Assembly (NCBI GenBank): GCA_036567785.1
Contig: DATCTV010000037.1
Location: forward strand, 62,001-126,000
Direction of reading: 5' to 3'
DNA from: Desulfomonilia bacterium
GTDB lineage: Bacteria; Desulfobacterota; Desulfomonilia; UBA1062
Length of the DNA stretch: 64,000 nt
Shown here in pieces: positions 53,858-61,004 of the stretch. Under the pieces are notes generated by a model. The model saw nothing but the letters and a program-made list of their open reading frames with translations, searched no databases and had not been told where the DNA came from. Numbering within the stretch: position 1 is the first letter of the stretch; the number at the start of each line of letters is the position of its first letter. The position numbers and the translations under genes are program-made.

Positions 53858-54628
53858 TCAGATATCTTCCGGGCATCCGAGCTGCGAGGAAATCTGTCTT
53901 GATGTAAGCCTCACGGCGGCTATTATATCCGTTTTCCTCTGCTCTATGTTCCGGGGATTGCCTGAAATGGTAAATGCCGCGATCAGCGTTCCGTCATGGT
54001 TGAAGATGGGGCCGCCTATTCCGGCCAGTCCGTTTATGGATTCCTGCCTGTCGTAGCTTATTCCGTCTCTTTTTACCTGTTCGAGTTCCTCAAGGAAGGC
54101 CTTTTTTGTCCTGATCGTATTCGGGGTGAAGACATCAAAAGAGTAATCCTTTAATATTTCGTCGCGCTTTGTGCTGTCCATATGTGCATAGAGCATCTTG
54201 CCGATGCATGTGCTGTGGGCCGGAATAACCGATCCAGCTTCAGGGAACACCATGTAACGGTTTTCCGGTTCTGTTCTTAATATGATTGTAACCTTTTCGC
54301 CTACAAGCACGCCTACGTTCACCGGCTCCATGAACTGAAAGCATAACCTCTCAAGCCAGGCCCTGCCTAGTGTGACCACATCCATGCTAGTGGCGCATCT
54401 CATGCCCAGCTGAAAAATCTGAGGCCCGAGCCTGTATTTTCCGCTCATGTGATCCTTTTCAAGAAAACCGAGGGCATCGAGAGTGACGACAATGCTTGAT
54501 ACGGTCGTCTTGGCAAGGCCGAGGCGTTTTGAAAAATCGGTTATACCTATCGGCTTCTTTTCGCTCAGGAAGAGCTCTAGTATATCGGAAGCCCTTTTTA
54601 TGGATTGAATAAGCCTTTTCTCACCCAT
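53858..54628 (-). CDS. IclR-family transcriptional regulator
   Basis: 256 residues: winged helix (IKRASDILELFLSEKKPIGI, LAKTTVSSIVVTLDALGF) and the IclR ligand-binding domain (GRAWLERLCFQFMEPVNVGV, IPAHSTCIGKMLYA, GIGGPIFNHDGTLIAAFTIS). These regulators bind small organic acids or acyl compounds. It is divergent from an acyl-CoA synthetase gene with a palindrome between them, so it most likely controls that gene and itself. Confidence 0.92.
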   Translation of the reverse strand: MGEKRLIQSIKRASDILELFLSEKKPIGITDFSKRLGLAKTTVSSIVVTLDALGFLEKDHMSGKYRLGPQIFQLGMRCATSMDVVTLGRAWLERLCFQFMEPVNVGVLVGEKVTIILRTEPENRYMVFPEAGSVIPAHSTCIGKMLYAHMDSTKRDEILKDYSFDVFTPNTIRTKKAFLEELEQVKRDGISYDRQESINGLAGIGGPIFNHDGTLIAAFTISGNPRNIEQRKTDIIAAVRLTSRQISSQLGCPEDI

Positions 54629-54652
54629 GATCTATCCCCTTCTATTTTTTCA

Positions 54653-54708
54653 TTGACTATGAAATTCATATAACATAAATTAATGGAACATGATACGATA
54701 ATATCGTA
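54653..54708 (+). promoter_or_regulatory. Promoter and operator of the acyl-CoA synthetase gene
   Basis: TTGACT (54653-54658), 17 bases, TAAATT (54676-54681) form a promoter. The palindrome TACGATA-A-TATCGTA (54694-54708) lies just after the expected transcription start, and a second small palindrome ATGAA-A-TTCAT (54659-54669) fills the spacer. Both are candidate IclR sites. Confidence 0.5.
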
Positions 54709-54749
54709 CAAAATGAAATTATCAAGAAGAAAACATTTAAGGAGGTTTC

Positions 54750-56594
54750 ATGAAGGCGCTCAATTTAAAATCGCTGATTCGCAAATATCTCTGGTTCGTA
54801 AATTTCGGGACCATGATAAAAACGAGCATGTGGTGGCTGTGGTTCCGCCGCAACCGTGTCTTTTTCATATTCGAAGACCGTGAATATACCTATGGAGAGG
54901 TTTATCAGCGCTCGCTCGATTTTGCACGATTCTTCGCCTCTGAGCGGGCAAGGCGTGTTGCCGAAGGAAAGATACCCGCAGAAGGCCGCCTAAGTGTAGG
55001 CATATATGTGGACAACGTGCCCGAATTCGTTTTCGCAGCACTCGGCGCCGGGCTCAGCAACTCCATACTGTTCGCCATCAATACCGGCTTCAGGGGCGAA
55101 ACGCTTGCAAACGTAATAGCCCAGGCAGACATTTCCATTCTCATCATCAACCCCAGTACCATAGTAGAAGCCGAGCGGGTTAAGGGAGAAACAGGGATAG
55201 CCGATGAGAATATTCTCTATATCGGCCACAGAACTGAGATCGAGGGCAAGTCCTACAGGGTGCTCAACGATGCGGTAAACGAGGCGACCGTAAAAAACGT
55301 TAAATACACGGTTCCCAGGGTCGATAATTTCAGCCCGGTCATTGTCATTTATACATCAGGAACGACAGGCCTGCCCAAGGGTGTGCCATGCACCCACATA
55401 AAGCTGTTCGGTGCAGGTTTCGTGGTGGAGGCGGCCGTACGGCTTACAAAAAAGGACAGGGGCTACATATCAATGCCGCTCTTTCATTCGAATGCATGGT
55501 ACATAGGCATACTCCCCCAGCTTATCGTTGGCGGCAGTTTTGTATTGAAGCGCAAATTCAGCGCGAGCGCCTTCGAGGAGGACATGCTTAAATACGGCGT
55601 GACCTTCCTCAATTACGTGGGTCAGCCGCTACACTACATCATCGATGCGCTTGAGAGGAAATACGGAAACGGCGAGGCTGTGGAAAAGGCGCTTGCAAAT
55701 CATCCTCAGAACAGGTTCAGGGTTGCCTACGGAAACGGGGCCTCGATCGTGGACCGCATAAAGTTCACGAAATATCTGGGAATGCAGCATGTCTTCGAGA
55801 TTTACGGTTCGACGGAAGCGGTCATAACCACGGCCAACCGGCCCGGTGACCCTATTGAGACCGTGGGAAGGGTCCAGAAGTCAGTAGTCATACTGGACGA
55901 GAACGGCAAGGAATGTCCTCCGGGTATTGTGGATGCGAACGGCAAACTCATCAACTATGACGAGGCGGTCGGCGAAATATGCCGCATCGTGGGCGACAAC
56001 AACCTCAGGTTCGAGGGCTATTTCGGCAATGCGAACGCGACCAGTCAGAAATTCAGAGACGGCATATTCCATTCCGGCGACCTCGGACATATAAGGATTG
56101 TCAAGGGCAAAAGATATCTATTTTTCAACGGCAGAACGGACGACTGGATCAGGAAGGACGGTGAGAACTTCTCAGCCGAAAATGTGCTCAAGTATGCTCA
56201 GGACATACCCGGAGTGGATGTGGCCATTGCATACGGAGCCCCCTGCGACGTATCAGACGAAAAGGTCATGATCGCCGTGCAGATGAAAGATGGTTGCGAG
56301 TTCAATCCGGACGAGACATATGCGTGGCTTGTCAGGCAGCAGAAGGAAGGCGGCATGGATCCCAAGTGGATGCCTGATTTCATAAGAATTATCGACAGTT
56401 TTCCCATGACCAATACCAACAAGATTGTTGTCAAGCCATACAAGAAGGAGAATTACAACCTGGGCAGCGATCCTGCAATGAAGGTTTTTTACCGTGAGAA
56501 GGGAGACACTACCTTCCACCCCATGACGAAGGAGAAATTCCAGTCGATCAGGGAATGCTTCATTAAGAACGGCAGGGAATCGCTTTTAGGATAG
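54750..56594 (+). CDS. Long/very-long-chain-type acyl-CoA synthetase (AMP-forming)
   Basis: 614 residues, adenylate-forming family. Motifs: P-loop YTSGTTGLPKGV, EIYGSTEAVIT, FHSGDLGHIR and FFNGRTDDWIRKDGENF; the C-terminal lysine is in TNKIVVKPYKKE. The N-terminal hydrophobic stretch (YLWFVNFGTMIKTSMWWLWF) and overall pattern resemble FATP/very-long-chain synthetases. It activates a carboxylic acid to its CoA ester with ATP, the entry step to beta-oxidation. AAGGAGG precedes the ATG. Regulated by the divergent IclR gene, by inference. Confidence 0.9.
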   Translation: MKALNLKSLIRKYLWFVNFGTMIKTSMWWLWFRRNRVFFIFEDREYTYGEVYQRSLDFARFFASERARRVAEGKIPAEGRLSVGIYVDNVPEFVFAALGAGLSNSILFAINTGFRGETLANVIAQADISILIINPSTIVEAERVKGETGIADENILYIGHRTEIEGKSYRVLNDAVNEATVKNVKYTVPRVDNFSPVIVIYTSGTTGLPKGVPCTHIKLFGAGFVVEAAVRLTKKDRGYISMPLFHSNAWYIGILPQLIVGGSFVLKRKFSASAFEEDMLKYGVTFLNYVGQPLHYIIDALERKYGNGEAVEKALANHPQNRFRVAYGNGASIVDRIKFTKYLGMQHVFEIYGSTEAVITTANRPGDPIETVGRVQKSVVILDENGKECPPGIVDANGKLINYDEAVGEICRIVGDNNLRFEGYFGNANATSQKFRDGIFHSGDLGHIRIVKGKRYLFFNGRTDDWIRKDGENFSAENVLKYAQDIPGVDVAIAYGAPCDVSDEKVMIAVQMKDGCEFNPDETYAWLVRQQKEGGMDPKWMPDFIRIIDSFPMTNTNKIVVKPYKKENYNLGSDPAMKVFYREKGDTTFHPMTKEKFQSIRECFIKNGRESLLG

Positions 56595-56619
56595 ATTGGA
56601 TTCTGTTTATCCTATCCGT

Positions 56620-56648
56620 ACCCCTGCACCATCGATTTGTGCAGGGGT
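56620..56648. terminator. Bidirectional terminator hairpin
   Basis: ACCCCTGCAC (56620-56629) pairs perfectly with GTGCAGGGGT (56639-56648) around a 9-base loop, between the convergent acyl-CoA synthetase and alcohol dehydrogenase genes. The T-tract after it is short. Confidence 0.65.
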
Positions 56649-56674
56649 CGTTAAACAATTCAGGCCTCGTTTTA

Positions 56675-57871
56675 TCAGATCTCAAATATGACCTTGATGA
56701 CGTGCCCGGGTTTTTCAAGGGCCAGCCTGAAGGCTGACTTGTAGTCATCCAGTTTGAAGCGGTGAGTTATAAAGCCGTCCAGTGATATGCGCTTCTCCGT
56801 GATCATCTCAATGGCCATCTCAAAGCTTGATAGGCTGCGACCCTGCCGGTTTTCCATGCCGTGCGAGTTTACGCCCATCATGGTAAGCTCCTGGTTCCAG
56901 AGTGGCGTATGGTCGAAGCTGATCGGGCTGAGCTGGTTTCCTATCATCACATAGGTTCCGTGCGCCTTGAGCCATCTGAGGGAATCGTGCACGATTGTGT
57001 TATAGCCCACACAGTCATAGATCAGATCGAATCCGCCCAGCATGGTCGTATTCTTAAGAGGCCCCCTGTAGACTTTGCCACCTGTAACGCGGGCCGCAGC
57101 CTCATAGGGGTCTCCCTCCAGGATCTCATTGGCTCCCAGCTTCAGGGCAAGCTCCTTTTTGAAAGGTATGCGTTCGAGCACATAAATAAAGCAGCCCGGA
57201 CTGAAAGCCCGCGCAAACTGTATGACATTGAGACCGATGGTGCCTGCGCCTATGACGAGGACTTTTTCACCCTCTGCTGGCGGCCTCCTGAGAACGGCGT
57301 GGAGCGAGACTGATACGGGTTCGATAAGTACGGCCTCTTCGTCGGCAATGGTATCAGGAACCTTCATCATCTGGCTTTCATGTGCGATGAACTGGTCACC
57401 GAAACCTGCGCCCGTATTGGACGGCATTTTCTTCTCCGAGAAATTCTCGCACAGTGGGTAGTTGCCCTCGGCGCACGGCCCGCATGGCGGGTTTATGCCC
57501 AGCATTGAGCAGCATGGCAGGTATCGCTGCATGGTCACCCTGTCGCCTGTTTTAAGATGTTTTACAGCGCTGCCGGTTTCTGTAACTATCCCGATGAGCT
57601 CATGCCCCATGAATGCGCGCGGTACGCCGGGCAGGGCCGCAATCGATATGGAGGGGCTCGCCTTGACAAAGAACAGCGAAAGGTCCGCCCCGCATATACC
57701 TGCAAGCACGGGCTTTACGCGTACCCAGTCAGACCCGGGCAGGGCCGGGTCGGGCAATGTGCCGTATCGAACAGGTGAAAGGCGGGAGAAGAAGACTTGA
57801 GGGAACAAGCCGCCCAGGGCCTTTGTGGCAAGTATGCGCGGAATGCTTACATCGAAATAGATGGATTTCAT
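56675..57871 (-). CDS. Zinc-dependent alcohol dehydrogenase (MDR family)
   Basis: 398 residues. Catalytic zinc ligands Cys60 (GICGAD) and His90-Glu91 (MGHE); structural-zinc cysteines in CCSMLGINPPCGPC and Cys141; nucleotide motif VIGAGTIGL. The N-terminal extension of ~45 residues (IPRILATKALGGLFPQVFF) resembles the part seen in a branch of threonine/sorbitol-dehydrogenase-like enzymes. The gene follows the Fe-S protein by 25 bases in the MarR operon, so the two may share an electron or substrate path. The alcohol is unknown. Confidence 0.88.
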   Translation of the reverse strand: MKSIYFDVSIPRILATKALGGLFPQVFFSRLSPVRYGTLPDPALPGSDWVRVKPVLAGICGADLSLFFVKASPSISIAALPGVPRAFMGHELIGIVTETGSAVKHLKTGDRVTMQRYLPCCSMLGINPPCGPCAEGNYPLCENFSEKKMPSNTGAGFGDQFIAHESQMMKVPDTIADEEAVLIEPVSVSLHAVLRRPPAEGEKVLVIGAGTIGLNVIQFARAFSPGCFIYVLERIPFKKELALKLGANEILEGDPYEAAARVTGGKVYRGPLKNTTMLGGFDLIYDCVGYNTIVHDSLRWLKAHGTYVMIGNQLSPISFDHTPLWNQELTMMGVNSHGMENRQGRSLSSFEMAIEMITEKRISLDGFITHRFKLDDYKSAFRLALEKPGHVIKVIFEI

Positions 57872-57896
57872 AAAGTCCTCCTTAAGCAGTTGTATG

Positions 57897-58721
57897 CTAA
57901 CGGTAGTCTATGAGACTGTCTATCCTGCCCATCAGGTCGCCGACTGCAGCATTAATATCACTGATACGAACCGTGACCGCTTTATTAGGGCAGACCGTCG
58001 CGCACCGGCCGCATCCCTTGCATGTAGAAGCATTATGTACGGCAATGCCGTTTTCGATCGTTACCGCATCCATGAAACACTCCGCCGCGCAGGTGCCGCA
58101 GCCTGTACAGAGCTTGCTGTCCACGACGATGTCAACGCCCTTGAGCATAACGAGCGATTTTGCAGCTTCGGGCGGGAAGTATTTGCCCGAGTTGAGTATG
58201 GTGCAGCAGCAGCGGCAGCAGTAGCAGACTGTCAGGAGCTTGCCCCGGTCACGCACGCCCCAGATGAAATTGTCCACTTTGACGCGTCCGGTCATGGGTA
58301 TGAGCCCGTCGGCAACGAGCTTGCGGTGATGCGCGATCGCCTCGTCAACGGGGATATGGCGCGCTATCCTCGAGTCTATCTCGCGTGTGCCGTCGCCCAT
58401 GAGCAGGCAACCGTATTCAACGGGATGCTCCCTGCACTGCTTTGCGTCCCTGCACGTACAGCGGTTTATTATTACTCGGTGCGATGAGCGTTTGATCAAT
58501 TCTTCGACTATTGCTCCGGGAAGCGGTGAATTCGTTGAGTCCTCAACCGTGGCATTGATCGGTATATATGAAATGTTGAGGTTTTTTTTCGAAAACATGG
58601 GAACGGTAATGCGTGCAATAAAACCGCCCACAACCGGCCACTTTGTTGCCTGTGCGCTGATCCATGTGATCGGCCAGATCTTTGCAAGAAAATAAAGCCA
58701 CCATTCAGGTCTGCGTGACAT
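57897..58721 (-). CDS. Multi-cluster Fe-S protein with C-terminal 2x[4Fe-4S] ferredoxin domain
   Basis: 274 residues with 18 cysteines in four groups: Cys88/90/96/105 (RCTCRDAKQC ... GC), the dense run Cys166-173 (CYCCRCCC, six Cys), Cys205/208/211/215 (CTGCGTCAAEC) and Cys234/237/240/244 (CKGCGRCATVCP). The last two are ordinary ferredoxin motifs; the first two suggest a further cluster or clusters. The N-terminus has a hydrophobic, Trp-rich segment but no clear signal. It lies between marR and an alcohol dehydrogenase gene. Electron carrier or Fe-S oxidoreductase; substrate unknown. Confidence 0.82.
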   Translation of the reverse strand: MSRRPEWWLYFLAKIWPITWISAQATKWPVVGGFIARITVPMFSKKNLNISYIPINATVEDSTNSPLPGAIVEELIKRSSHRVIINRCTCRDAKQCREHPVEYGCLLMGDGTREIDSRIARHIPVDEAIAHHRKLVADGLIPMTGRVKVDNFIWGVRDRGKLLTVCYCCRCCCTILNSGKYFPPEAAKSLVMLKGVDIVVDSKLCTGCGTCAAECFMDAVTIENGIAVHNASTCKGCGRCATVCPNKAVTVRISDINAAVGDLMGRIDSLIDYR

Positions 58722-58739
58722 AAAAACCTCCTATTGTGT

Positions 58740-59249
58740 TCAGCGCCGTCTCTTTATTGGAACGCCCTTTTCAATATTTGATGACTCCGGATCGCTGTTT
58801 AGTGGCGGCACTCCCAGAATCGAGCTCAGGTTTGCTGCAGCCTTCATTACGGCAGCAAGTTCCTCTGAACTGTAATCCTTCACACCGGACAGGATTGTTT
58901 CATACGAGTGGTCTTCGGATGCCTTCATCAGCTTAAGACCTGACTCGTTAAGTTCGACCAGTATATTGCGCTTGTCCGCCGGGTCTTTGCTTCGGCTTAC
59001 GAGCTTTCGTCTCTCAAGGCGGTCCACGGCGCGGCTCGCCGTGCTTATATGAACGCTCAGCTCCCGTGCAATATCGCTCATGCGCACAGGGGAGGAACGG
59101 CGCAGATAGTAAAGAAGATATGAATCCTGATAGGTCATGCCGAAGAGCTTTATCTTCTGCTGGTCGAACTGATAGACTGCGGCCATGGCATTATAGAGTA
59201 TTTCATCGACCTTCTTGCGCGGAAACGAATCGATCAGCCCTTTTTTCAT
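58740..59249 (-). CDS. MarR-family transcriptional regulator
   Basis: 169 residues: winged helix with MSDIARELSVHISTASRAVD and RLERRKLVSRSKDPADKR, flanked by dimerisation helices. The frame opens at 59267, but that ATG lies upstream of the predicted transcription start; ATG 59249 is preferred. The promoter would start transcription at about 59251, giving an almost leaderless message. The palindrome over its promoter argues for autoregulation together with the Fe-S protein and alcohol dehydrogenase genes downstream. The ligand is unknown. Confidence 0.88.
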   Translation of the reverse strand: MKKGLIDSFPRKKVDEILYNAMAAVYQFDQQKIKLFGMTYQDSYLLYYLRRSSPVRMSDIARELSVHISTASRAVDRLERRKLVSRSKDPADKRNILVELNESGLKLMKASEDHSYETILSGVKDYSSEELAAVMKAAANLSSILGVPPLNSDPESSNIEKGVPIKRRR

Positions 59250-59257
59250 GAAAATCG

Positions 59258-59292
59258 AGTTTAGCAAATTATTTGCGCATGTGCAAATAATT
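59258..59292 (-). promoter_or_regulatory. Promoter and MarR operator
   Basis: On the minus strand TTGCAC (59281-59286), 17 bases, TAAACT (59258-59263). Perfect half-sites AATTATTTGC (59267-59276) and GCAAATAATT (59283-59292) with a 6-base centre cover the -35 and spacer; a second overlapping palindrome GCAAAT-T-ATTTGC lies at 59264-59276. Binding would block polymerase. Confidence 0.7.
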
Positions 59293-59332
59293 CGAACCTG
59301 CGGCCCGTTGCCTTATTGATTGAAATAAGACT

Positions 59333-60505
59333 TTAACCTATGCTTCTGGCAGCGGGGCGGCTTTTCATCAGAAGACCGATCAGCCCTGAGACGAAAGGCA
59401 GCATAAACGTAACGCTCAACGCGGTATGCATTCCCCATGTGTCAGCGATATGGCCTAAGATTATCACTGCAAGCCCGCCTATGCCGCCTGCAAACCCCAT
59501 CGAGAGTCCGGCTGCGAACGCCTTGTTGTCCGGGATCGCCTCCTGCGCGGCAACTACTGTTACGGAAATGCTTGAAAGGAGTGCAGCGCCTGAGAGCATC
59601 ATGAACACGATCCTCAGGGTGCCCTCAGTTGAGAAAAAGGCGAACAACAGAGGGGTTGATATCATCAGCGATGATACGATAAGCGGCTTGCGTCCGTAAT
59701 TATCGGACAGATAGCCTCCGAGTATGCCTCCGAACACGCCTGAGAAGAGCATGATCGTGACCATGTATCCTATGGTCACATTCGTGTAGCCATTCGATTT
59801 GAAATAAAGCGGAAGAAAGGTTAAGAGCCCGACGAATGCTAGCGACCTTATGGCGATTACGCTTATTATTGCTGCAAGTTCGCGTGCGGCGCGCCATATT
59901 GAGCGGAACACCTCGGAGAGCGCAAGCGTACTGGGCGCAATGACTCTGTCTTTCGGCGTGAGGAAGATCAGAAGCAGCGAGACGAGGATCCCGGGAATTA
60001 TGATAAATGGCGTGACGCCGAGCCCGAAGGCCTGGAAAAGAGGTATGAATAGCAGCGGGGCGAGCGCAAAGCCTATGTTTCCGAACGCCACGAACCCCGA
60101 GAGTATAAGGGCCTTTCGGTTTCCGCTCAGAATATTGACCATTGTGGATGCCTGCGGGTGGAAGGCGGCAGTCCCGAGTCCGGCAAGGGTTGCAAGACTT
60201 ATAAGTGCGGTGTAGCTCTTGACCACGCCTGTCATGCTCAGCATTACGGACATCCATAGAGTGCCTACGTAAACGAGCCAGCGCTTGCCCTTGCGGTCCA
60301 GGAAAAAGCCGAAGAACGGCTGGGCTATGGAGGATGATATTGTGAAGGCGGAGATCAGGGCTGCCGCCCTTGTTGCAGTGAAATCAGGCCTTGCAACGAC
60401 CAGAAACAAGAGCATCTGTGGCAGATAGTTGCTGTACAGGTCGTTCAGCATGTGAGCGAGCGACAGCACGCCTATCGTCGTATATTTTCTATAAAGGCTT
60501 TTCAT
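59333..60505 (-). CDS. MFS transporter, fosmidomycin-resistance (Fsr)-like
   Basis: 390 residues, twelve predicted membrane helices. The N-terminus SLYRKYTTIGVLSLAHMLND and the loop FFLDRKGKRW (motif A-like), plus GGYLSDNYGRKPL in the second half, fit the Fsr/YfnC-type drug or metabolite exporters. The frame begins at 60538; I take ATG 60505 because it gives the usual N-terminus. The exported compound is unknown. It lies upstream of the MarR gene on the same strand with an 83-base gap. Confidence 0.85.
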   Translation of the reverse strand: MKSLYRKYTTIGVLSLAHMLNDLYSNYLPQMLLFLVVARPDFTATRAAALISAFTISSSIAQPFFGFFLDRKGKRWLVYVGTLWMSVMLSMTGVVKSYTALISLATLAGLGTAAFHPQASTMVNILSGNRKALILSGFVAFGNIGFALAPLLFIPLFQAFGLGVTPFIIIPGILVSLLLIFLTPKDRVIAPSTLALSEVFRSIWRAARELAAIISVIAIRSLAFVGLLTFLPLYFKSNGYTNVTIGYMVTIMLFSGVFGGILGGYLSDNYGRKPLIVSSLMISTPLLFAFFSTEGTLRIVFMMLSGAALLSSISVTVVAAQEAIPDNKAFAAGLSMGFAGGIGGLAVIILGHIADTWGMHTALSVTFMLPFVSGLIGLLMKSRPAARSIG

Positions 60506-60584
60506 CGGATTGCCCCAAATAAAGTCCGGACCTGTCATGCCGGCCCTCTGACCGGCATGATATACCCGGATGTTTCAATGATTT

Positions 60585-61004
60585 CTAGTCCCCTATTATC
60601 TTCACCAGCACACGCTTTCTGCGCATCCCGTCAAATTCACCGTAGAATATCTGCTCCCACGGCCCGAAGTCGAGCCTGCCGTTCGTGACCGCCACTACCA
60701 CCTCCCGTCCCATGACCTGGCGCTTGAGATGGGCGTCGCCGTTGTCCTCACCCGTCCTGTTGTGTTGGTAGAAGCTTACCGGCTCATGCGGCGCAAGCCT
60801 TTCGAGCCAGTTCCTGTAATCAGAATGAAGTCCGCTCTCGTCATCGTTTATGAATACCGAGGCGGTTATATGCATCGCATTCACCAAACAGAGTCCTTCA
60901 GTGATGCCGCTTTCCCTGAGCGCATCTTCAACGTCCGGCGTTATGTTTATGAACTCAACCCTTTTAGATATATTGAACCACAATTCTTTTCTGAATGATT
61001 TCAT
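60585..61004 (-). CDS. YjbQ-family protein (UPF0047)
   Basis: 139 residues. The conserved core [34 protein letters not shown] and [14 protein letters not shown] is complete, including the metal-binding histidines. Family members have weak thiamine-phosphate synthase activity and can replace ThiE when overproduced; the natural role is unclear. GGAG six bases upstream fits ATG 61004. It overlaps or abuts the upstream lipoprotein gene, so the two are probably co-translated. Confidence 0.9.

Follow-up and report, generated by a model that had tools for sequence, protein, structure and literature searches.

The locus raises the question of what an iron-sulfur (Fe-S) protein with 18 cysteines does between a MarR-family regulator and a zinc-dependent dehydrogenase, and whether the three genes belong to one redox module. 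The preliminary description of this DNA had proposed an inducible module for an alcohol, an aldehyde or a toxic compound; nothing in our analysis points to the last of these roles. We give even chances to the reading that the Fe-S protein is a MarR-controlled multicluster electron carrier, which serves NAD(P)-linked dehydrogenases and is made together with the zinc dehydrogenase.

Organization of the locus and the candidate operator

The window (the whole 64-kb stretch of DNA analyzed here) carries on the minus strand, from 59292 to 56675 and in this order, a palindrome, the MarR gene, the 18-cysteine Fe-S gene and the zinc dehydrogenase gene. The features of the region are as follows.

59333..60538, minus strand: MFS transporter upstream of the MarR gene, only a candidate member of the unit (open reading frame, Pfam)
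59267..59292, no strand: putative operator, a 26-bp palindrome AATTATTTGCGCA/TGTGCAAATAATT with 12 of 13 pairs (palindrome scan)
59264..59276, no strand: shorter perfect palindrome GCAAAT-T-ATTTGC with a third half-site, overlapping the 26-bp palindrome
58740..59249, minus strand: MarR-family regulator, 169 aa from the ATG at 59249 (PF01047)
57897..58721, minus strand: Fe-S protein, 274 aa, with a cysteine-rich N-terminal domain (10 cysteines) and a 2[4Fe-4S] ferredoxin domain at residues about 197-252 (open reading frame, Fer4 above cut-off, cysteine conservation in 81 members)
56675..57871, minus strand: zinc-dependent medium-chain dehydrogenase, 398 aa (PF08240 and PF00107 above cut-offs)
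54750..56594, plus strand: acyl-CoA ligase, convergent with the zinc dehydrogenase (Pfam, NCBIfam)

The position of the Fe-S gene between the two others agrees with the preliminary description, and the gaps are short, 18 bp between the MarR and Fe-S genes and 25 bp between the Fe-S and dehydrogenase genes. The segment 57897-59292 singled out there holds the MarR and Fe-S genes, whereas the dehydrogenase gene lies outside it. AGGAGG-type ribosome-binding sites precede the Fe-S and dehydrogenase genes, and the genes are spaced as in a settled operon. The stop codon of the MFS transporter gene is 83 bp from the MarR ATG, on the same strand. On the far side, an IclR regulator is divergent from the acyl-CoA ligase (53858-56594 in the window), and the best NCBIfam match of this ligase is steroid-22-oyl-CoA synthetase, at 280.9 bits against a cut-off of 900. 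A search for plasmid carriage gave no matches at E 1e-15.

The winged helix of the MarR protein was identified with Pfam (PF01047, 51.2 bits against a cut-off of 24.6). All of its 18 NCBIfam matches were far below their cut-offs, and thus a ligand cannot be transferred from a named relative. By eye, no clear ribosome-binding site was seen before the ATG at 59249. A start at the TTG at 59267 is possible, but would fall inside the operator, and the MarR orthologue of a related genome, G001 (61% identity), has a start that aligns near the ATG.

Two overlapping perfect palindromes had been described as covering the promoter. They do overlap, and the 13-bp palindrome is perfect, whereas the 26-bp palindrome has one unmatched pair. 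Their placement over the promoter was not borne out, as a consensus scan of 56500-60700 gave two sigma-70-like sites, neither of them at the palindrome. Judged by eye, TGCTAAACT between the palindrome and the ATG resembles an extended -10 element.

The palindrome itself stands out from its background, being the only gapless one with at least 12 of 13 pairs in the window; none was found in 20 first-order Markov sequences of equal length. Its core, TTATTTG-N8-CAAATAA at 59269-59290, was searched for in the host genome and 59 relatives, allowing at most one mismatch. Exact copies were found at just two sites in the 60 genomes, in the window and at G001:C249:7767-7788, where the core is located between the MarR orthologue and a divergent dehydrogenase of 68% identity. 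With one mismatch the sites were many, scattered and about as frequent as control sites, and the operator inference uses only the two exact matches. The longer pattern TTATTTGC-N6-GCAAATAA has one mismatch at the G001 site, the shuffle expectation for at most three mismatches on this 13.6-kb contig being 0.13. Since the exact core occurs only beside orthologues of MarR and the dehydrogenase, these two genes and the operator belong together, and the proposal that the palindrome is a MarR operator gains support. The segment HISTASRAVDRLE, taken for the recognition helix, is identical in the window and G001 MarR proteins and differs in four remoter aligned MarR proteins. Among the 24 genomes of the order, just these two yielded a MarR orthologue this close, so that the operator comparison rests on one relative; genomes G007 and G008 have a close dehydrogenase and lack this MarR.

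A larger MarR regulon was also considered. The longer pattern with at most three mismatches gave 20 sites in the host genome, one of them exact, as compared to 35 with a reversed control pattern, and a wider regulon is therefore unsupported. Regulators of the MarR family that control metabolic operons are the subject of a review (PMC5487221). The regulatory part of this locus is ordinary in kind. The operator is defined from two genomes well enough for binding tests and a search for the inducer, which, if found, would reveal the substrate.

The dehydrogenase and the genomic partners of the Fe-S family

The zinc-dependent nature of the dehydrogenase is well supported by Pfam (ADH_N, 60.7 bits against 23.5; ADH_zinc_N, 60.8 against 31.8). 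The enzyme resembles the polyol/threonine-dehydrogenase type more closely than a classical alcohol dehydrogenase; the preliminary description had called it a zinc alcohol dehydrogenase. The nearest solved chain is the NADP(H)-dependent ketose reductase 1e3j, and the best NCBIfam match, IolM (scyllo-inosose 3-dehydrogenase), reached 116.8 bits, below the equivalog cut-off of 450. Downstream of the MarR gene in G001, on the same strand, are a threonine-dehydrogenase-like dehydrogenase, a short-chain dehydrogenase and a split transketolase. The paralogue in the host genome (58%, contig C34) is beside a split transketolase, a short-chain dehydrogenase and an aminotransferase, and the G007 enzyme (60%) is beside a transketolase half. 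This proximity of orthologues and a paralogue to transketolase and short-chain dehydrogenase genes suggests that the dehydrogenase acts on polyol- or ketose-like compounds. At two loci, L098 (host genome, C34) and L078 (G001:C249), the transketolase genes are split and have short-chain and zinc dehydrogenases as neighbors; L098 additionally has an aminotransferase and an epimerase. Zinc-dependent enzymes of this class work without an Fe-S partner.

Relatives of the Fe-S protein were detected in 9 of 60 near genomes at E 1e-20. Across the phylum, 21 of 394 genomes had them at E 1e-40 (at most six candidates scored per genome). The host genome is counted in both figures, and the distribution of the family is sporadic. 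A contig scan of named genomes gave ten loci. Four of these have full-length relatives, with 59-65% identity, from MAGs labelled Smithellaceae, Spirochaetota, Deltaproteobacteria and Desulfobacteraceae; in the remaining six, the match is mainly across the ferredoxin part. The survey of neighborhoods covered 65 loci (the window, four from named genomes and 60 others, several genomes giving many paralogues). The Fe-S reading frames were locked in against longer overlapping ones, and contig ends shorten some of the neighborhoods.

MarR and this dehydrogenase adjoin the Fe-S gene in the window only; neither does so in the other 64 loci, and a MarR-like gene within five genes was seen in two loci, one of which is the window. 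The G001 pair of MarR and dehydrogenase, with its operator, has no Fe-S gene beside it, and in the draft genomes G001, G007 and G008 the Fe-S and dehydrogenase genes are on different contigs. In view of the adjacency in 1 of 65 loci, a conserved module of all three genes was rejected.

The partners found elsewhere are very mixed. NAD-dependent epimerase/3-beta-HSD-like proteins are adjacent to the Fe-S gene in six loci and fused to it in five, together 11 of 65. The five fusions (L059:4330-6087, L160:4039-5850, L163:5905-7737, L166:7003-8763 and L174:7053-8858) join an N-terminal domain of this kind and the cysteine-rich Fe-S protein in a single reading frame. Within five genes, we counted acyl-CoA dehydrogenases in seven loci, acyl-CoA ligases in seven (window included), thiolases in six and AFOR in three. 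These counts come without a random-gene control, and thus only fusion and direct adjacency carry weight. The commonest Pfam family occurred in 5 of 101 operon-like neighbors (same strand, no more than 200 bp apart, 110 aa or longer; the window and five of the 65 loci are not part of this tally). Tandem or near-tandem Fe-S copies were present in 11 loci. A context of steroid catabolism was considered in view of the 3-beta-HSD-like fusion partners, pairs of acyl-CoA dehydrogenases and the ligase resembling a steroid-CoA synthetase below cut-off; with neighbors this mixed, it was set aside as suggestive only.

Two further observations concern the close relatives. In L038 and L039, the tandem Fe-S paralogues are separated by a gene for a small hydrophobic protein (92-99 aa; L038:1096-1371 and L039:5397-5693); the two small proteins share an FGFTWWLP motif, the L039 copy has no Pfam match, and such a protein could tie the Fe-S pair to the membrane. 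At L037:1924-3171, a redox protein with a C_GCAxxG_C_C motif and a nitronate-monooxygenase-like flavoprotein are found beside a 65%-identical Fe-S homologue.

These data make it a possibility to be taken seriously, although one that we do not favor, that the Fe-S gene joined a MarR-dehydrogenase operon recently, as a passenger. It would be co-expressed there but work with its usual partner elsewhere, for example the Fe-S paralogue of clade B encoded on contig C17 of the host genome, in acyl-CoA or other catabolism. Three of the four closest relatives (L038, L039 and L040) are in tandem with a clade-B paralogue and not with MarR or the dehydrogenase, while the fourth, L037, is on a 4-kb contig. 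The clade-B copy of the host genome is on another contig than the window, the G001 pair lacks the Fe-S gene, and the acyl-CoA dehydrogenases, ligases, thiolases and AFOR near the family elsewhere also fit this reading. However, the spacing in the window is that of a settled operon, and close relatives of the two proteins co-occur. In the 24 genomes of the host's family, six have a close Fe-S relative (E 1e-60) and four a close dehydrogenase (E 1e-115), all four being among the six. When the window genome is left out, the three genomes of 23 with a close dehydrogenase are all among the five of 23 with a close Fe-S protein (p 0.006, at thresholds picked after the data were seen). A link of the Fe-S family to this dehydrogenase is thus possible but not proven.

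Cysteine conservation and fold of the Fe-S protein

The Fe-S family is the interesting part of the locus. Its cysteine-rich domain turns up here and there among genomes, many of which have several copies. The 18 cysteines of the window protein are arranged as had been described: C88-x-C90-x5-C96-x8-C105, CYCCRCCC at residues 166-173, and two CxxCxxCxxxC motifs (205-215 and 234-244). The latter two belong to the 2[4Fe-4S] ferredoxin domain, which has a Fer4 match above cut-off and a ferredoxin fold in the model. The N-terminal domain holds the cysteines 88, 90, 96, 105, 166, 168, 169, 171, 172 and 173. Residues 1-195 matched no Pfam family at E up to 5 (with HMMER filters that drop most weak matches), residues 50-197 no NCBIfam family at E 0.01, and the N-terminal domain no sequence in the PDB at E 1. 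In particular, neither Pfam nor NCBIfam gave a match of the N-terminal part to the CCG domain (HdrB-type) or to other described cysteine-rich Fe-S domains, and the parts of the literature covered held nothing on such a protein. The domain thus appears so far undescribed, as the searches made turned up neither a Pfam or NCBIfam model for it nor a relative of solved structure. The remoter relative L004:1048-2157 in the host genome contains CxCR, CNCCGDCC and ferredoxin motifs, which suggests that the domain is part of a wider superfamily. A membrane anchor in the Trp-rich N-terminus was considered and rejected, as the top 19-residue hydropathy mean, 1.19, falls at residue 204 instead.

AlphaFold2 models built from 8 sequences had mean pLDDT values of 64.4 (full protein) and 71.8 (residues 50-197), which is a modest confidence, and they yielded no cluster geometry. 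The match list of the full model was filled by the ferredoxin half. The N-terminal domain alone gave a best Foldseek E of 1.5 and a best Z of 2.4, and such weak matches of a model of this quality do not show that the fold is novel.

A family profile at E 1e-30 identified 81 distinct Fe-S reading frames; being full-length, it favors rows that keep the motifs. C88, C90, R91, C105, G109, C166, C168 and the eight ferredoxin cysteines are present in all 81 members, C173 in 80 and H131 in 78. The other N-terminal cysteines are more variable: C96 is kept in 74, C169 in 70 (Asp in 10), C171 in 75 and C172 in 76. The conservation of these additional groups in homologues makes an extra cluster likely, as the preliminary description had supposed, and the N-terminal domain probably holds extra metal clusters.

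The variable positions change together. In the covariation table, C96 and the C171/C172 pair are both kept in 74 of 80 rows and both lost in five; C96 alone is lost in one (Ser in the first copy of L038), and C171/C172 alone in none (Fisher 2.5e-7, kinship ignored). The 81st row, L151, was left out as misaligned; by eye it has lost both, as it is without C96 and has CFCDDKC. On midpoint-rooted trees with the motif columns excluded, the joint loss amounts to three changes in a tree of 70 members, and to two in a tree of 81 members with L151 scored as not lost. All joint losses fall inside the paralogue clade B (support 1.0). L151 accounts for one of the three, and its position within the clade is weakly supported (0.12). 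Because C96 is retained or lost along with C171 and C172, we read the domain as having two sites. The pattern suggests that the six near-invariant cysteines form an obligate site, next to an optional four-ligand site, which gives a direct and testable partition of the ten cysteines.

A bolder reading, which we regard as rather unlikely, is that the N-terminal domain represents a new Fe-S fold in which two sites can be separated. It would link NAD(P)-dependent dehydrogenases, with which some of its relatives are covalently fused, to the low-potential electron pools of anaerobes. The six cysteines of the obligate site, arranged 3+3, would possibly hold a double-cubane or P-cluster-like [8Fe] cluster or an open-site cubane, and the four ligands of the optional site would be lost as a unit in some paralogues.

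It is improbable, in our judgement, that the domain acts as an enzyme and not as a wire, with a catalytic metal cluster fed by the ferredoxin half. C88, C90, R91, C105, G109, H131, C166, C168 and C173 would then form a site-differentiated or six-cysteine double cluster, and the near-invariance of the six cysteines, with R91, G109 and H131, is consistent with this, as are the five epimerase/3-beta-HSD-like fusions and the lack of similarity to known carrier domains in the Pfam, NCBIfam and PDB searches. However, the conserved Arg and His may equally tune or ligate an electron-transfer cluster, and activity, substrate and cluster type are not readable from sequence. Cysteine-dense motifs can bind zinc, and the clusters here are predicted from sequence, but that the upstream groups bind zinc or sense thiol redox and hold no Fe-S clusters is very improbable, given the ferredoxin domain attached in 81 of 81 members (which the full-length profile gathering favors) and the joint loss of the four-ligand set.

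Proposed role and comparison with known systems

On the reading of the Fe-S protein as a MarR-controlled multicluster carrier, MarR would repress its own three-gene operon through the palindrome at 59267-59292, and a ligand would release it, allowing joint production of all three proteins. The dehydrogenase would oxidize a polyol-like or other secondary alcohol, or reduce a ketone, with NAD(P). The Fe-S protein would be soluble, with two [4Fe-4S] clusters in its ferredoxin half, an obligate N-terminal site formed by C88, C90, C105, C166, C168 and C173, and an optional [4Fe-4S]-type site formed by C96, residue 169 (Cys or Asp), C171 and C172. Through this protein, electrons may move between the reactions of NAD(P)-linked dehydrogenases and either the cell's ferredoxin pool or a different redox partner.

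The ferredoxin half resembles known proteins by fold, namely HdrA (Z 11.0 over 64 residues, 2.6 A), PorD (Z 9.8) and RnfB (Z 8.7), and is like the polyferredoxin MvhB by sequence. In contrast, no counterpart of the added N-terminal domain of ~195 residues with ten cysteines was found. The regulator is like other MarR-family proteins in its winged-helix Pfam match and in the palindrome beside its own gene, and unlike the named relatives in that it reaches none of the 18 NCBIfam cut-offs. The dehydrogenase shares ADH_N and ADH_zinc_N with the polyol/sorbitol/threonine-type enzymes (1e3j, Tdh, IolM), which also give its best solved matches, and the GHE motif and the cysteine-rich zinc loop are retained in all four aligned dehydrogenases, window included. 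It differs from them in length, with 398 residues as compared to about 350, and its scores are below every equivalog cut-off. Compared with these systems, the unit in the window is a regulator, operator and dehydrogenase common to one relative, to which one member of a cysteine-rich, ferredoxin-like family is added.
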